NCBI GenBank assembly: GCA_003389385.1
Contig: QQVM01000010.1
Location: 1 to 64,000, forward strand
DNA from: Bacteroidota bacterium
Lineage (GTDB): Bacteria; Bacteroidota; Bacteroidia; AKYH767-A; 2013-40CM-41-45
DNA length: 64,000 bases
Direction: 5' to 3'
The notes beneath the pieces were generated by a model that made no database searches, was not told where the DNA came from, and saw only the letters and a program-made list of their open reading frames with translations. Made by a program: the position numbers and the translations under genes. Of the stretch, positions 7,909 to 46,318 are shown piece after piece (position 1 is the stretch's first letter; every line of letters begins with the position of its first letter).

Positions 7909-7995
7909 GGAGAGATGTCCGAGTGGTTTAAGGAGCAAGCCTGGAAAGTTTGTATACGGGAAACCGTATCGTGGGTTCGAATCCCACTCTCTCCG
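7909..7995 (+). tRNA. tRNA-Ser(GGA)
   Basis: An 87-nt tRNA with a long variable arm, as expected for class II tRNA-Ser. The acceptor stem GGAGAGA (7909-7915) pairs with TCTCTCC (7988-7994), with discriminator G7995. The anticodon stem CAAGC/GTTTG encloses the loop CTGGAAA with anticodon GGA at 7943-7945, reading UCC and UCU. The variable arm contains TACGG/CCGTA, and the T-loop is GTTCGAATC. The CCA end is not encoded. Confidence 0.95.
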
Positions 7996-8008
7996 CAAAA
8001 AAACAAAG

Positions 8009-8028
8009 ATTGCCCCCGCAGGGGCAAT
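8009..8028 (+). terminator. Terminator after tRNA-Ser
   Basis: A perfect 8-bp stem ATTGCCCC/GGGGCAAT with loop CGCA is followed directly by TTTTGTTTT. It lies 14 bases after the tRNA 3' end. Confidence 0.85.
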
Positions 8029-8036
8029 TTTTGTTT

Positions 8037-8401
8037 TAGGAGCGTGATGAGCTTGCTCATCTAAGCGGATAAAATAAAAATTGAATTGCCGCGTAACGGC
8101 TGGCAATCTTTGTTAAGATTGCAGGATCCCCCACAAGGGATCACCGAAGGTAATCCCGAATTAGGAGCGTGATGAGCTTGCTCATCTAAGCGGATAAAAT
8201 AAAAATTGAATTGCCGCGTAGCGGCTGGCAATCTTTGTTAAGATTGCAGGATCCCCCACAAGGGATCACCGAAGGTAATCCCGAATTAGGAGCGTGATGA
8301 GCTTGCTCATCTAAGCGGATAAAATAAAAATTGAATTGCCGCGTAGCGGCTGGCAATCTTTGTTAAGATTGCAGGATCCCCACAAGGGATCACCGAAGGT
8401 A
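8037..8401. repeat. 125-bp tandem repeat, 2.9 copies, rich in hairpins
   Basis: Three head-to-tail copies start at 8037, 8162 and 8287, each beginning TAGGAGCGTGATGAG. The spacing is exactly 125 bases; the third copy stops at about 8401. Copies 1 and 2 differ at one base (GTAACGG versus GTAGCGG), and copy 3 lacks one C. Each unit contains four inverted repeats: GATGAG/CTCATC, GCCG/CGGC, GCAATCTT/AAGATTGC and GATCCC/GGGATC. There is no convincing reading frame. The block fills the space between tRNA-Ser and the convergent TonB-dependent receptor gene. The rest of this gap (8402-8554) holds only weak hairpins (ATTATG/CATAAT at 8414-8431) and no gene that I can see. Confidence 0.95.
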
Positions 8402-8554: not shown

Positions 8555-10960
8555 CTAAAACTCCAACATCAACCCCACACTCGGCAAAATATTTCCGCTT
8601 GTGTTTTTGATTTCTTTTGTCAGATAAGAATCGGGCGAGGCCGGATCGCTCTGGGGAGTTCCGTTCTCATCATACACAAGATCGAGGAAAGGCTGTGCTT
8701 CTGCCTGAAAATTGTAAATGTTCTGTATGTCCAGATATGCATTGAGAGACCACTTATTAAAAAACCATTTTTTATCAATTCGAACATCCAGACCGTGTAC
8801 GACTGGGTTTCTCTCTGTATTGAGTTTGTTCCAGTCGGGAATTCCCTGCCGGTTCAGTTCCCATATTTCTTTTCGGGATGACAACTGCACATCGTACGGA
8901 GTATATGGAGCTCCTCCAAGCAGACGAAACTTTATTCCAAGCTCCCAGTTCTTTCTCAGTTTCTTCCCGGCGGTAATATTTAATATGTGACGGTTGTCCC
9001 AGGATGATGGCACATAATTTCCATCCTTATCTTTGAACTCACTCCTTACGTATGTGTAGGATAGAATTCCGTAAATGCTGCTGCTGAGCTTTTGCTGCAT
9101 TAACAATTCAAGCCCGTAGCTTCTTCCTTCTGATTCAGGCACTGCAGCTTCGTTTCCAATCACGCCAAAATCAGCTCCGAGGTTAGCAAGTGAAATGCTG
9201 TCGTTTAGAAGGAAGGGATAATCATTATATATTTTATAAAAACCTTCGAGCGAAATTTTACTCAACGGTGTCGGACTGTATTCAAGTCCGCTGACTAAAT
9301 GAGTGCTGCTGATGTATTTCGCTCCATTTTCCTTGTTCACCAGACTCCCTGTGCTGTCACGGTATCCGAGCAGAGTATATGGGGGAAGCTGGAAATATTT
9401 TCCTGCATTGAAATTTATATTCAGTTTTTCCGAAAGCGCGTATGAAGCGGAGATCCTTGGAGATATTTGTTCAAGCGGAGAATTCATTTCAACTGAGTAA
9501 TCACTGAAATCTGTCCTCAGTCCGAATGAAAGTGTCAAATGGTTTTCTAAAACCGGTCTGCTTATCTGTGCAAAGAGTGAATACTTATTGAAACTAAGTT
9601 TGGAGTTATAATCTATTACAATGGCCTGGCCCGCCGTTTCCTTTTTATTGAATGTGTTGTTTCTGTAATCCGCTCTTTCGTATCCTCCACCTGCAAGTAT
9701 TTTCCATTCTTCCAGGCGGATTATATTTTCTATTCGCACCTTGGTTTCAGTTTCAACTGAACGGTAGTCAAGCAGCAAACGGTCTTGTTCTTCCACATTT
9801 CCGGAATATTTCTCAGCACGGTTTTCAAGCTGGTTGCGGCTTACAATAATATTCTGATACCCATTCATGATAAATCTTGTCCACTTCACTCCTCCGGCAT
9901 AATTCCATTGTGTATTTACAGGGAGGTATCCAAGAATGTATCTGTTTCTCTCAATCAACTCCTCATTACTGATGTCTTCATTCACAGATGTATTGAGACG
10001 AAAATCATCTATCGCGCCAATTCCTGTGAGTGTGATACTGTTCTTATCATTGATTCGTGAAACAACTTTGAACTGCGCATCATTGTATGTGGGAAGAAAA
10101 GGCAATGCCAGGGCTTTGAACAGGAGTTGCAAGTACGATCTTCGTGCTGAGAAAAGGAAGTTCGTCTTCTCTCCCAATGGTCCTTCAAGGGTTAATCCGA
10201 CATCACTCGAGCCAATCATAAATGTGCCTCCGGTCTTTTCATCATTGCCTTCTCGCTGTTTGAACTCCATTACCGAACTTAAGGCATTGCCCTTGCTTGC
10301 CGGAAATGCGCCTGCAAAAAAATCCACTTCACGAATGAGATTCACATTGATCATACCTACAGGTCCGCCGGAAGAACCCTGAGTGGCAAAATGATTGATG
10401 TTAGGCACCTCTATTCCATCAAGATAAAAACGGTTCTCTCCTGGCGCTCCTCCTCGTACGATAAGATCGTTACGGAAAGATAATGTTGATGCTACTCCAG
10501 GAAGTATCTGGATCACTTTTGAAATGTCGCGATTGCCACCTGGATTGCGAAAAATTTCCGTGGCGCTGATACTGCGTAAACTCAGTGGACTTTCCTCTGT
10601 CTTGTTGAAGGGATCAGCACGTACAACCACTTCTTCAAGCTTTTCGCTGCTCTCCTCCAGTTCAAAATTCAGCGTAGTGGTCCGGGCTGATGAAAGCTGT
10701 ACTTCAAATGCGCGACTTTCTTTAAATCCAATGAAAGAACACCTTATGTTATACTGTCCGGGTTGAATTCCTTCAATGCGATAGTTACCTGTACTGTCAG
10801 AAGTAGCTCCCAATCCGACTCCTTCAACAAATACATTCGCATACGGAATAGGCTCATTGTTGATCTTGTTGCTGATACGGCCTTTTAACACTGCTGTCTG
10901 GGCATAGACAGAGCTATTATTTAAAATAAAGAAGACTATACCCAAAATTAATCTTGACAT
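8555..10960 (-). CDS. TonB-dependent receptor with CarboxypepD_reg-like domain
   Basis: An outer-membrane receptor of about 801 residues from the ATG at 10960, which gives a compact signal peptide (MSRLILGIVFF...SVYAQ). An upstream ATG at 10987 would add nine polar residues and is less likely. Residues about 25-110 form a carboxypeptidase-regulatory-like beta domain (LKGRISNKINNEPIPYANV), typical of Bacteroidota receptors. A plug domain follows (DISKVIQILPGVAS, DLIVRGGAPGENRFYLDGIE), then a 22-strand-type beta-barrel ending in an aromatic Phe. It would import an unknown ligand using energy from ExbB/ExbD/TonB. No SusD partner is adjacent, so a glycan role is not indicated. The DNA spacer at its 3' side holds the 125-bp repeats. 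Confidence 0.88.
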   Translation of the reverse strand: MSRLILGIVFFILNNSSVYAQTAVLKGRISNKINNEPIPYANVFVEGVGLGATSDSTGNYRIEGIQPGQYNIRCSFIGFKESRAFEVQLSSARTTTLNFELEESSEKLEEVVVRADPFNKTEESPLSLRSISATEIFRNPGGNRDISKVIQILPGVASTLSFRNDLIVRGGAPGENRFYLDGIEVPNINHFATQGSSGGPVGMINVNLIREVDFFAGAFPASKGNALSSVMEFKQREGNDEKTGGTFMIGSSDVGLTLEGPLGEKTNFLFSARRSYLQLLFKALALPFLPTYNDAQFKVVSRINDKNSITLTGIGAIDDFRLNTSVNEDISNEELIERNRYILGYLPVNTQWNYAGGVKWTRFIMNGYQNIIVSRNQLENRAEKYSGNVEEQDRLLLDYRSVETETKVRIENIIRLEEWKILAGGGYERADYRNNTFNKKETAGQAIVIDYNSKLSFNKYSLFAQISRPVLENHLTLSFGLRTDFSDYSVEMNSPLEQISPRISASYALSEKLNINFNAGKYFQLPPYTLLGYRDSTGSLVNKENGAKYISSTHLVSGLEYSPTPLSKISLEGFYKIYNDYPFLLNDSISLANLGADFGVIGNEAAVPESEGRSYGLELLMQQKLSSSIYGILSYTYVRSEFKDKDGNYVPSSWDNRHILNITAGKKLRKNWELGIKFRLLGGAPYTPYDVQLSSRKEIWELNRQGIPDWNKLNTERNPVVHGLDVRIDKKWFFNKWSLNAYLDIQNIYNFQAEAQPFLDLVYDENGTPQSDPASPDSYLTKEIKNTSGNILPSVGLMLEF

Positions 10961-11037
10961 AATTTGCCTGGCTTTACTTTGCTCCAATGAACAATTCTTT
11001 CGCGATTAAGTTTGAATGATAAACTGAATTCTGTTTA

Positions 11038-44944: not shown

Positions 44945-46318
44945 TTAGATGGCATCAATGATAAGTCCGGGCAGGATGCCAAACAACAGGGCCAACAAAG
45001 AGCAAATTAGCAAGAATGCTTTATTAAAGACATTTACTCCCAAATCATTCATTTGAACGTTGCTTTCAAAGATATTGATGATTATCCGGAAATAGTAAAA
45101 CACACCAACAAGAGAACCCGCTACAGCAATCAAAACAAGGCCGGTATAGCCACTCTGAAGAGCGGCAGAAAATATATAATACTTGGCAAAAAATCCGGCC
45201 AGAGGGGGTATTCCTGCAAGGGAGAGAACTGCGATACAAGCTGCGGAAGCCATTATAGGATTCTTGGAAAACATTCCGCGTAATCCCGATATCTCTTCTG
45301 TGCCCGATTTTGAAGAGACTATCAAAAGAACCATAAAAGCGGCAAGTGATGAAATACCATATGCTGCAGTATAAAACAACAGGGAAGAAGCGGCCTTTTC
45401 ATTGAGCGCAATCACGGACATGATCATGTATCCCGCATGAGAAATACTTGAATAAGCGAGCATTCTCTTGAGGTTAGTCTGATAGACCGCAAGGATATTT
45501 CCCAAGACAATAGTTATTGCAGAAATCACCCAAAGTGTAGCGATCCAAAATTCTGATGGTCCTGCGAAGGCACTGCCAAATAAGCGGAGAAAAGATGCGA
45601 TGGCCGCAGTTTTCACCACCGAAGACATGAATGCAGTCACTGGCGTGGGGGCGCCCTGATAAACATCCGGAGCCCAGAAATGAAAGGGGGCTGCAGCAAT
45701 TTTAAATGTCAGGGCGGTTAATATCAGGAGAATGCCGGCTATCAATACCGGAGATGAGCTATGCCCTGTGCTCATGATGTATTCTGAAATCTGGTCAGTG
45801 TTGAAGCTGCCTGTTATACCATAAACCAGTGCGATACCAAACAATAAAAAGCCAGTGGTGAAGGCGCCTAAAAGAAAATATTTCATTGCCGCCTCATTAG
45901 AGGCAAGGTTGTCTTTTTTACTGCCCGCCAGAGCATACATCGAAATCGAAAGGATTTCTATTCCAAGGAAAAGCATGATCAGATTTGTAAACGAAACCAT
46001 CACAAGGGCGCCAATTAGGGAAAAAACAATTAGGGAAAAATAATCGGTTCGGGTTTCTTGATCCTCAAACATACTTGAAGACATTACAAACCAGAGAAGG
46101 GTTATAAACAGGATCAATACTGAAAAGGACACGGCGTAATTATCTGTCCTGATCATATTATTAAAATAAGAAGCACTGTTGTTCCAGTCGCCCAGGGCGG
46201 CCACTATGGCGGCAATGATGCCGGCAAATACAATTGGAAAAATAATCTTCTTGAAATTGAAAATTTCAGAGAACAGGATTATCAGTCCCAGAGCAGCCAG
46301 TATAATCAGTGAGTTCAA
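44945..46318 (-). CDS. nuoN: NADH-quinone oxidoreductase subunit N
   Basis: A 457-residue antiporter-like proton-pumping subunit of complex I, with about 14 TM helices. The Proton_antipo_M core has FMSSVVKTAAIASFLRLFGS and KRMLAYSSISHAGYMIMSV with the conserved Lys residues. Its order behind nuoL and nuoM with 18-22 base gaps confirms the subunit identity. The other nuo genes are not in the window. It is the last gene of the nuoL-nuoM-nuoN unit. Confidence 0.94.
   Translation of the reverse strand: MNSLIILAALGLIILFSEIFNFKKIIFPIVFAGIIAAIVAALGDWNNSASYFNNMIRTDNYAVSFSVLILFITLLWFVMSSSMFEDQETRTDYFSLIVFSLIGALVMVSFTNLIMLFLGIEILSISMYALAGSKKDNLASNEAAMKYFLLGAFTTGFLLFGIALVYGITGSFNTDQISEYIMSTGHSSSPVLIAGILLILTALTFKIAAAPFHFWAPDVYQGAPTPVTAFMSSVVKTAAIASFLRLFGSAFAGPSEFWIATLWVISAITIVLGNILAVYQTNLKRMLAYSSISHAGYMIMSVIALNEKAASSLLFYTAAYGISSLAAFMVLLIVSSKSGTEEISGLRGMFSKNPIMASAACIAVLSLAGIPPLAGFFAKYYIFSAALQSGYTGLVLIAVAGSLVGVFYYFRIIINIFESNVQMNDLGVNVFNKAFLLICSLLALLFGILPGLIIDAI

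Follow-up and report, generated by a model that had tools for sequence, protein, structure and literature searches.

A family of short structured elements at the 3′ ends of tRNA and tmRNA genes in Bacteroidota

A complete element behind tRNA-Ser(GGA)

What is a 125-bp tandem repeat doing between a tRNA gene and the 3′ end of a convergent gene? The repeat lies in the 64,000-nt stretch of Bacteroidota DNA analysed here (the window), at a locus with a CAAX-protease-like gene upstream of the tRNA-Ser(GGA) gene. A sequence-only reading had described it as nearly identical copies of a hairpin-rich unit, suggestive of recent amplification, that follow a tRNA terminator and might belong to a dispersed repeat family attached to tRNA genes. 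TRF bears out the repeat itself, giving a period of 125, 2.9 copies and 99% matches over 8036–8401, with copies starting at 8036, 8161 and 8286 and the last one ending at 8401. Copies 1 and 2 differ by a single base, and copy 3 has one C missing and ends within its own tail hairpin. The hairpins are borne out as well: the unit at 8162–8286 folds into several of them on either strand (−40.6 kcal/mol, z −3.5 on the plus strand; −43.5 kcal/mol, z −4.3 on the minus strand).

In taking the 125-bp unit for the whole object, the sequence-only reading missed the left half of copy 1. Specifically, 8002–8014, which lies between the tRNA and the T-run, is exactly complementary over 13 nt to 8102–8114, which lies within copy 1, and unsupervised RNA folding (MFE) of 7991–8168 gives a four-way structure followed by a tail hairpin (Table 1). 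The complete element in the window occupies 8002–8157 and begins 5 nt past tRNA-Ser(GGA). In the MFE fold the central arm is capped by a hairpin (8046–8061) with a CTTG loop, and the right arm reads GCCGC GTA GCGGC in copies 2 and 3. The left arm can also form, with 8009–8014 and 8025–8028, an alternative GC-rich hairpin ahead of a T-run. We conclude that a family of miniature non-coding elements is probably represented in the window by one complete copy (8002–8157) and two truncated ones.

Table 1 Position, strand and basis of each feature at the tRNA-Ser(GGA) locus of the window.
Feature	Position	Strand	Basis
tRNA-Ser(GGA), host gene upstream of the element	7909–7996	+	ARAGORN; Rfam RF00005 at 7909–7995
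Outer stem, 5′ arm (AACAAAGATTGCC)	8002–8014	+	13-nt inverted repeat with 8102–8114; paired in MFE fold
Left arm	8015–8024	+	MFE fold; sequence
Central arm: CAATTTTTGTTTTA (8025–8038) pairs with TAAAATAAAAATTG (8070–8083)	8025–8083	+	MFE fold; pairing family-wide
Right arm, GCCGC GTA ACGGC in copy 1	8088–8100	+	MFE folds
Outer stem, 3′ arm (GGCAATCTTTGTT)	8102–8114	+	Inverted repeat with 8002–8014; MFE fold
Tail hairpin GGGATCACCGAAGGTAATCCC, tRNA T-arm look-alike	8137–8157	+	Sequence; family-wide pattern and covariation
Second unit: tail plus right half, the latter starting at the base of the central hairpin	8161–8285	+	TRF, alignment
Third unit: right half, one-base deletion, tail cut within hairpin	8286–8401	+	Sequence comparison
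TonB-dependent-receptor-like gene, 810 aa, convergent neighbour outside the element	8555–10987	−	ORF, ends at 8555

Four further stretches came up elsewhere in the window's genome, on another contig behind tRNA-Ser(TGA), where a 172-bp unit takes in the duplicated 3′ end of the tRNA. Between these stretches lies an element with the same fold and a different sequence (E = 3.9e-5 with covariance model R1, described below); in the comparisons made, its identity to the neighbouring elements and the window copy is 0.55–0.61. A third site lies behind tRNA-Cys, and the nine model matches in this genome at E ≤ 1e-4 all fall at these three tRNA loci. On one contig (L008, 5316–6802, G000:C6) we also observed histidine-kinase-like and response-regulator-like genes (ORFs judged by eye) between two element copies, one of which is cut at the right and the other at the left; these genes are possibly cargo or a later insertion.

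A four-way fold kept while sequence drifts

Elements with little sequence identity and the same fold turned up among the tRNA flanks of 11 genomes of the same taxonomic family and in one match from another family; RNA MFE folding returned the four-way structure for the serine-tRNA examples and not for a tRNA-Arg example (L035). Applied to 42 genomes of the order, a covariance model built from four elements (R1) found a match in 17 (E ≤ 0.1). A refined model (R2), for the building of which 28 matches were aligned, matched 117 of 395 class genomes, spread over 69 of 197 genera, and 0 of 299 genomes of a control class (that of a Lacticaseibacillus), both at E ≤ 1e-4; in a phylum-wide sample it matched 25 of 395 genomes, eight of them from outside the class. 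These E-values are rough owing to a short calibration and, in the large searches, stricter filters. The unit is found both at further tRNAs of its own genome and in other genomes, and the earlier suggestion of a dispersed family attached to tRNA genes is strongly supported by the own-genome search, the model matches in relatives and the adjacency to tRNA genes.

A scan of 84,980 species with an exact tail pattern gave at least 116 stretches, of which the 80 listed ones (L196–L275) were examined. By name these are Bacteroidota except for one Chlorobiota and one Lacticaseibacillus (phylum inferred from the names). They hold 107 matches, which with one from a scan of viral contigs make 108; the viral match lies away from any tRNA 3′ end. 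Sixty-two of the 108 lie ≤260 nt behind a same-strand tRNA or tmRNA gene, 18 lie ≤2500 nt behind one, 16 are too close to a cut end and 12 have no tRNA or tmRNA. The two positions that the pattern leaves free are complementary in 104 of the 107 genome matches, with four pair types among the matches listed, and the Lacticaseibacillus match, with A/A, is among the three exceptions. Copy 1 as a sequence query had no match in plasmids and phages, a weak test given the divergence of the family, and in Rfam searches of the window, L008 and eight further loci only tRNA and tmRNA reached the gathering score.

Most matches of the covariance models lie close to tRNA genes. In a first set, 101 of 132 elements begin ≤15 nt from the 3′ end of a tRNA or tmRNA called by ARAGORN; this set leaves aside antisense-strand matches, copies 2 and 3 of the window, L008 5122–5220 and a few weak or partial matches (e.g. 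L062 1137–1229, L066 821–875 and L109 2023–2121) and retains L056 (E 0.0037, no tRNA), a match probably due to chance. Among the 31 non-adjacent elements, judged by eye, about 16 are later units that follow a displaced tRNA 3′ end and about 11 follow a tRNA-like end left uncalled by ARAGORN or lie slightly farther away; the four that are neither are L056, L108 (at a contig end), a copy preceded by a run of N and the one that follows the kinase genes. In a further set, made up of 46 best-strand matches plus L313 and omitting, among others, second units, L205, L269 and some matches near contig ends, 45 of 47 elements are adjacent by the same distance. Combined, 146 of 179 elements are adjacent, at 23 kinds of tRNA or tmRNA gene and 86 of them at serine tRNAs, and no two of the 179 are identical together with their flanks.

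The fold is conserved to a far greater degree than chance pairing would give. In the 28 sequences aligned for R2, 40 of 42 base pairs have changes on both sides (shuffled mean 27.8). In 91 distinct sequences outside model building, 93.4% of cells pair, compared with 58.1% in shuffled and 46–57% in slid controls; 1248 cells are changed on both sides (shuffled mean 332); and both-side change occurs in 42 of 42 pairs (shuffled mean 36.7). None of 500 shuffles matched any of the three values. Because the 91-sequence alignment was itself fitted to the model, we carried out a different test on loci for which the tail pattern was the sole selection criterion. Folding gave three or more branches on a closing stem in 39 of 52 such loci and in 272 of 1040 dinucleotide shuffles (median z −7.3), the other 13 loci giving no four-way fold, and the two outer-stem arms of a locus match each other over ≥8 nt in 38 of 52 cases, as against 51 of 1022 when arms were swapped between loci. 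Terminal inverted repeats are also a feature of the family: the outer stem measures 13 bp in the window, and 93.1% of outer-stem cells are paired across the family alignment. The four-way cruciform is thus kept by compensatory changes despite the drift in sequence. Certain loops recur, with C-GNA-G triloops in 51 of 88 right arms and GNRA loops in 38 of 136 left arms.

Transcription end or inserted unit

The sequence-only reading had placed a separate tRNA terminator ahead of the repeat. A terminator layout is indeed present by sequence in the left hairpin and T-run of the window (8009–8037); what does not hold is the separateness, as the same stretch doubles as the left arm of the element at 8002–8157. 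A terminator scan lists the left hairpin for the minus strand only and on that strand finds the right arm and T-run terminator-like in each copy (8100–8088, 8225–8213 and 8350–8338), with 4 sites found versus 1.0 expected. Across the family, a T-run lies in the first 60 nt of 110 of 146 elements, and an A-run is present in 101 of 146. It is plausible from these sequence features that the element serves as a transcription end, possibly for both strands. Another role raised earlier, protection of the 3′ end of the receptor mRNA, finds no specific support.

Wobble pairs bear on the strand that is selected. In the left and central arms G.T pairs outnumber A.C mismatches 82:7, whereas the outer stem gives 28:19 and the hairpin base 13:15; these counts are to be read with the caveat that the model may itself prefer G.T and that selection on the T-run yields the same bias. 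These statistics favour a sense-strand role for the left and central arms and not for the outer stem; on whether the fold acts as DNA or as RNA they are mixed and allow no firm conclusion.

The T-run directly behind the tRNA, the family-wide T- and A-runs and the wobble bias, which is expected if the tRNA-sense strand is selected as RNA, together fit a vertically inherited, structured tRNA trailer (a terminator, perhaps bidirectional, or a processing element) that occasionally duplicates by replication slippage between the T-arm and the tail hairpin and needs no mobility. The closest between-genome relatives fit such a trailer too: the 16 pairs at ≥0.80 identity are found at serine tRNAs (the same one or a different one), tRNA-Cys or ends uncalled by ARAGORN. 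However, a terminator needs neither the outer stem nor the tail, and the occurrence of the element is patchy. In G001, the other genome from the window's genus, the upstream genes and the tRNA-Ser are syntenic, but no model match at E ≤ 0.1 occurs anywhere in the genome. The trailer also sits badly with whole units that are present or absent and with different elements stacked at one tRNA, both described below, and on balance we regard it as unlikely.

Instead, the marks left at the tRNA genes are consistent with insertion. A T-loop is recognisable in 142 of the 146 adjacent loci, 137 of which have enough sequence for comparison. In 79 of 137 loci by a stricter criterion, and in 93 of 137 by a looser one, the tail is similar to the T-stem of that locus's tRNA, whereas controls with tRNAs of other amino acids average 24.7 and 40.1, respectively. 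Moreover, a displaced copy of the 3′ part of the same tRNA (at least 12 of 14 nt) is present in 39 of 137 loci and in none for every control draw; by this criterion it is absent from the other 98, among them the window copy, where only AATCCC is left in its place before copy 2. Where both ends are defined the unit measures 158–172 bp, a length that leaves no room for an integrase gene of its own.

Presence and absence can be compared in genus g19. In G034 and G040 an element, B, lies immediately behind tRNA-Ser(GGA), and in G038 and G029 a second element, A, 56% identical to B, lies between the tRNA and B. The additional unit is 158–159 bp long and bounded by exact 17-nt copies of the tRNA end (L165, L168), and the sequences upstream are 91.5% identical over 600 nt between G034 and G029. 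A fifth genome, G037, has element A too, on a contig that ends ahead of where B would be. The element thus abuts the 3′ end of the tRNA gene, and at one orthologous site the whole of it is present or absent; insertion of A and its precise loss, by deletion between the 17-nt repeats, both fit the pattern. Different elements are also stacked at a single tRNA in the window's own genome (G000:C6). In G160 we observed a different arrangement (L153, G160:C23 3000–11000), in which two 109-nt elements, 100% identical and 4.6 kb apart, lie the first right behind tRNA-Gln and the second behind a displaced tRNA-Gln 3′ end, with several ORFs in the interval, one nucleotidyltransferase-like by eye.

Elements at different tRNAs within a genome are mostly about 0.6 identical, and pairs from different genomes have a median of 0.59, with 95% below 0.66. 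The exceptions within genomes are at serine tRNAs in G000 (0.79–0.91) and G400 (0.86) and at tmRNA and tRNA-Arg in G063 (0.78; a tmRNA/Arg/Val group). Because elements at different tRNAs are mostly as unlike as random pairs, most lineages seem to be tied to their own tRNA. Recent spread of one element within a genome is unsupported, as within-genome copies are mostly no closer than copies from different genomes.

Arrays such as that in the window are common: 79 of the 146 tRNA-adjacent loci have further aligned pieces within 1.5 kb, 125 pieces in total. Counting each piece of an array singly, so that the pieces are not independent events, 26 start at the full start of the element, 4 at 0.1 of its length, none at 0.2, 45 at 0.3–0.5 and the remaining 50 further right. 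The peak at 0.3–0.5 indicates that right-half copies directly after the tail are a recurrent product, which may arise from breakage or polymerase switching at the centre of the cruciform. Recent amplification, as the sequence-only reading had it, fits copies 1–3 of the window; the amplified object differs, copies 2 and 3 being truncated right halves in a pattern that recurs at other loci. The tail can also multiply by itself, as in L255 (1364–1434), where three tail hairpins follow one element in tandem at a 25-nt spacing.

We suggest that the elements are probably a family of miniature non-autonomous elements of Bacteroidota with the 3′ end of a tRNA or tmRNA gene as their specific integration site. 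At the T-arm or T-loop a unit would enter as a discrete piece; the copy of the 3′ part that it carries would restore the tRNA, and a terminator, probably a bidirectional one, would come with it, so that insertion would be harmless. Lacking a protein, the element would depend on an enzyme acting in trans, most likely a tyrosine recombinase that works on the folded strand. Insertion as a unit with duplication of the tRNA end is what tyrosine integrases do at tRNA genes, and a recombinase that reads shape in trans would explain a conserved fold with free sequence. New units would enter beside the tRNA, and older ones behind would tend to lose their left halves, with breakpoints near the centre of the cruciform; such losses would account for the 125-bp tandem units of the window.

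Several observations weigh against mobility. The integron-integrase profile TIGR02249 had no match above its cut-off in 16 element-bearing genomes and none in 16 genomes without model matches. Sub-threshold recombinase matches occurred in all 16 genomes with elements, in all 16 without and in well-known control genomes, and so have no association with the elements. In addition, the low likeness of copies within genomes is unlike that of a freshly spreading transposon, the g19 pattern could be a precise deletion, 98 of 137 loci and the window copy are without a displaced tRNA end, and likeness of the tail to the T-stem by the stricter criterion extends to 79 of 137 loci, with 24.7 expected from other tRNAs. 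A broader proposal can be offered only tentatively: that these elements make up a phylum-wide class of mobile DNA, about 160 nt long, devoid of genes and recognised by shape rather than sequence, whose folded single strands enter the T-arm of tRNA or tmRNA genes, with a tail fitted to one target tRNA, polar arrays and a single trans-acting recombinase.

Remaining alternatives and relation to known systems

Islands and prophages that target tRNA genes could leave attachment ends behind after loss of the island body, and large insertions at these tRNAs do occur: in G400 some 45 kb separate tRNA-Ser(TGA) from a displaced 3′ end, and a 429-aa frame resembling a recombinase lies about 1.2 kb past the tRNA. 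Yet the ends of that insertion (260 nt on the left and 45 nt on the right, in the one island examined) have neither cruciform nor T-arm tail, and the same fold at 23 kinds of tRNA or tmRNA is unexpected for remnants of unrelated islands, so that we find this explanation improbable. Behind this insertion (G400:C2, ~183.6–228.5 kb) we observed a displaced cruciform element. Very improbable, in our view, is a gene-free counterpart of an integron cassette array, in which folded single-stranded sites gather at a tRNA instead of attI: structure kept over varying sequence, stacking beside a fixed site and occasional genes between copies (G000:C6; the 4.6-kb interval in G160) are in keeping with it, and the lack of an integron integrase above cut-off in the 32 genomes searched counts against it. 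Finally, local slippage or an assembly artefact, which the near-identity and truncation of copies 2 and 3 might suggest, is hardly credible given the same layout at 146 tRNA- or tmRNA-adjacent loci; slippage alone is rejected by the unit at a second tRNA and in other genomes, and an artefact is refuted for the element itself but may still affect the exact copy number at 8036–8401.

If the elements are mobile and site-specific, as we favour, they invite comparison with several known systems. ICEs, islands and prophages that target tRNA genes carry tyrosine integrases. The elements resemble such integrative elements in their insertion in the 3′ part of the tRNA, the restored tRNA and the displaced 3′ end on the far side, and differ from them in their size of about 160 bp without a gene, their conserved cruciform and their T-arm-like tail hairpin. 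Within integrative elements, NBU1 is placed at the 3′ end of a tRNA-Leu gene by a title cited in PMC8138268. Integron attC sites and cassette arrays share the conservation of structure over sequence and the formation of arrays at one site; here, in contrast, there is no integrase above cut-off and no gene per unit, and a tRNA is the target. Like MITEs, the elements are short and non-coding and have inverted repeats; unlike MITEs, they have a fixed tRNA target, a covarying internal four-way fold and few copies per genome. BrickBuilt of Porphyromonas gingivalis, also of the Bacteroidota, is described in PMC4596501 as a MITE with tandem repeats, at 19 scattered places and with 23-nt repeats. REP sequences are likewise extragenic palindromic DNA (PMC3733652), but by that account they are scattered, of high copy number and 20–40 bp long, whereas the present element is about 160 bp and lies behind tRNA ends.

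In the open-licence literature, judged by titles and the openings of abstracts, we found no published description of such elements. Short non-autonomous mobile DNA at tRNA genes is a known kind of element; the family and its combination of features are apparently undescribed and were not known to us. If our reading is correct, tRNA 3′ ends in a large bacterial phylum would bear an overlooked layer of tiny mobile elements, which would help to account for differences in tRNA flanks among related species, could lead the annotation of tRNAs, terminators and att sites astray, and would supply a wealth of natural variants with which to ask what enzyme reads DNA shape at these genes. Should the elements be immobile, a covarying structure at 23 kinds of tRNA or tmRNA that is absent from Rfam represents a function awaiting a name.

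Other repeats also occur near tRNA genes in these genomes. GC-rich palindromic repeats of other kinds lie immediately behind tRNA-Ser genes in G001 (L022) and G009 (L036 and L039), and in G001 the repeat takes the place that the cruciform element has in the window's genome. Tandem partial tRNA-Arg-like repeats lie behind or between tRNA-Pro and tRNA-Arg (L030 1–220, G000:C16; L031 1740–2620, G009:C1) and are a separate tRNA-derived array. Elsewhere in the window, a 15-bp unit is present in 1.9 repeats at 46012–46040.
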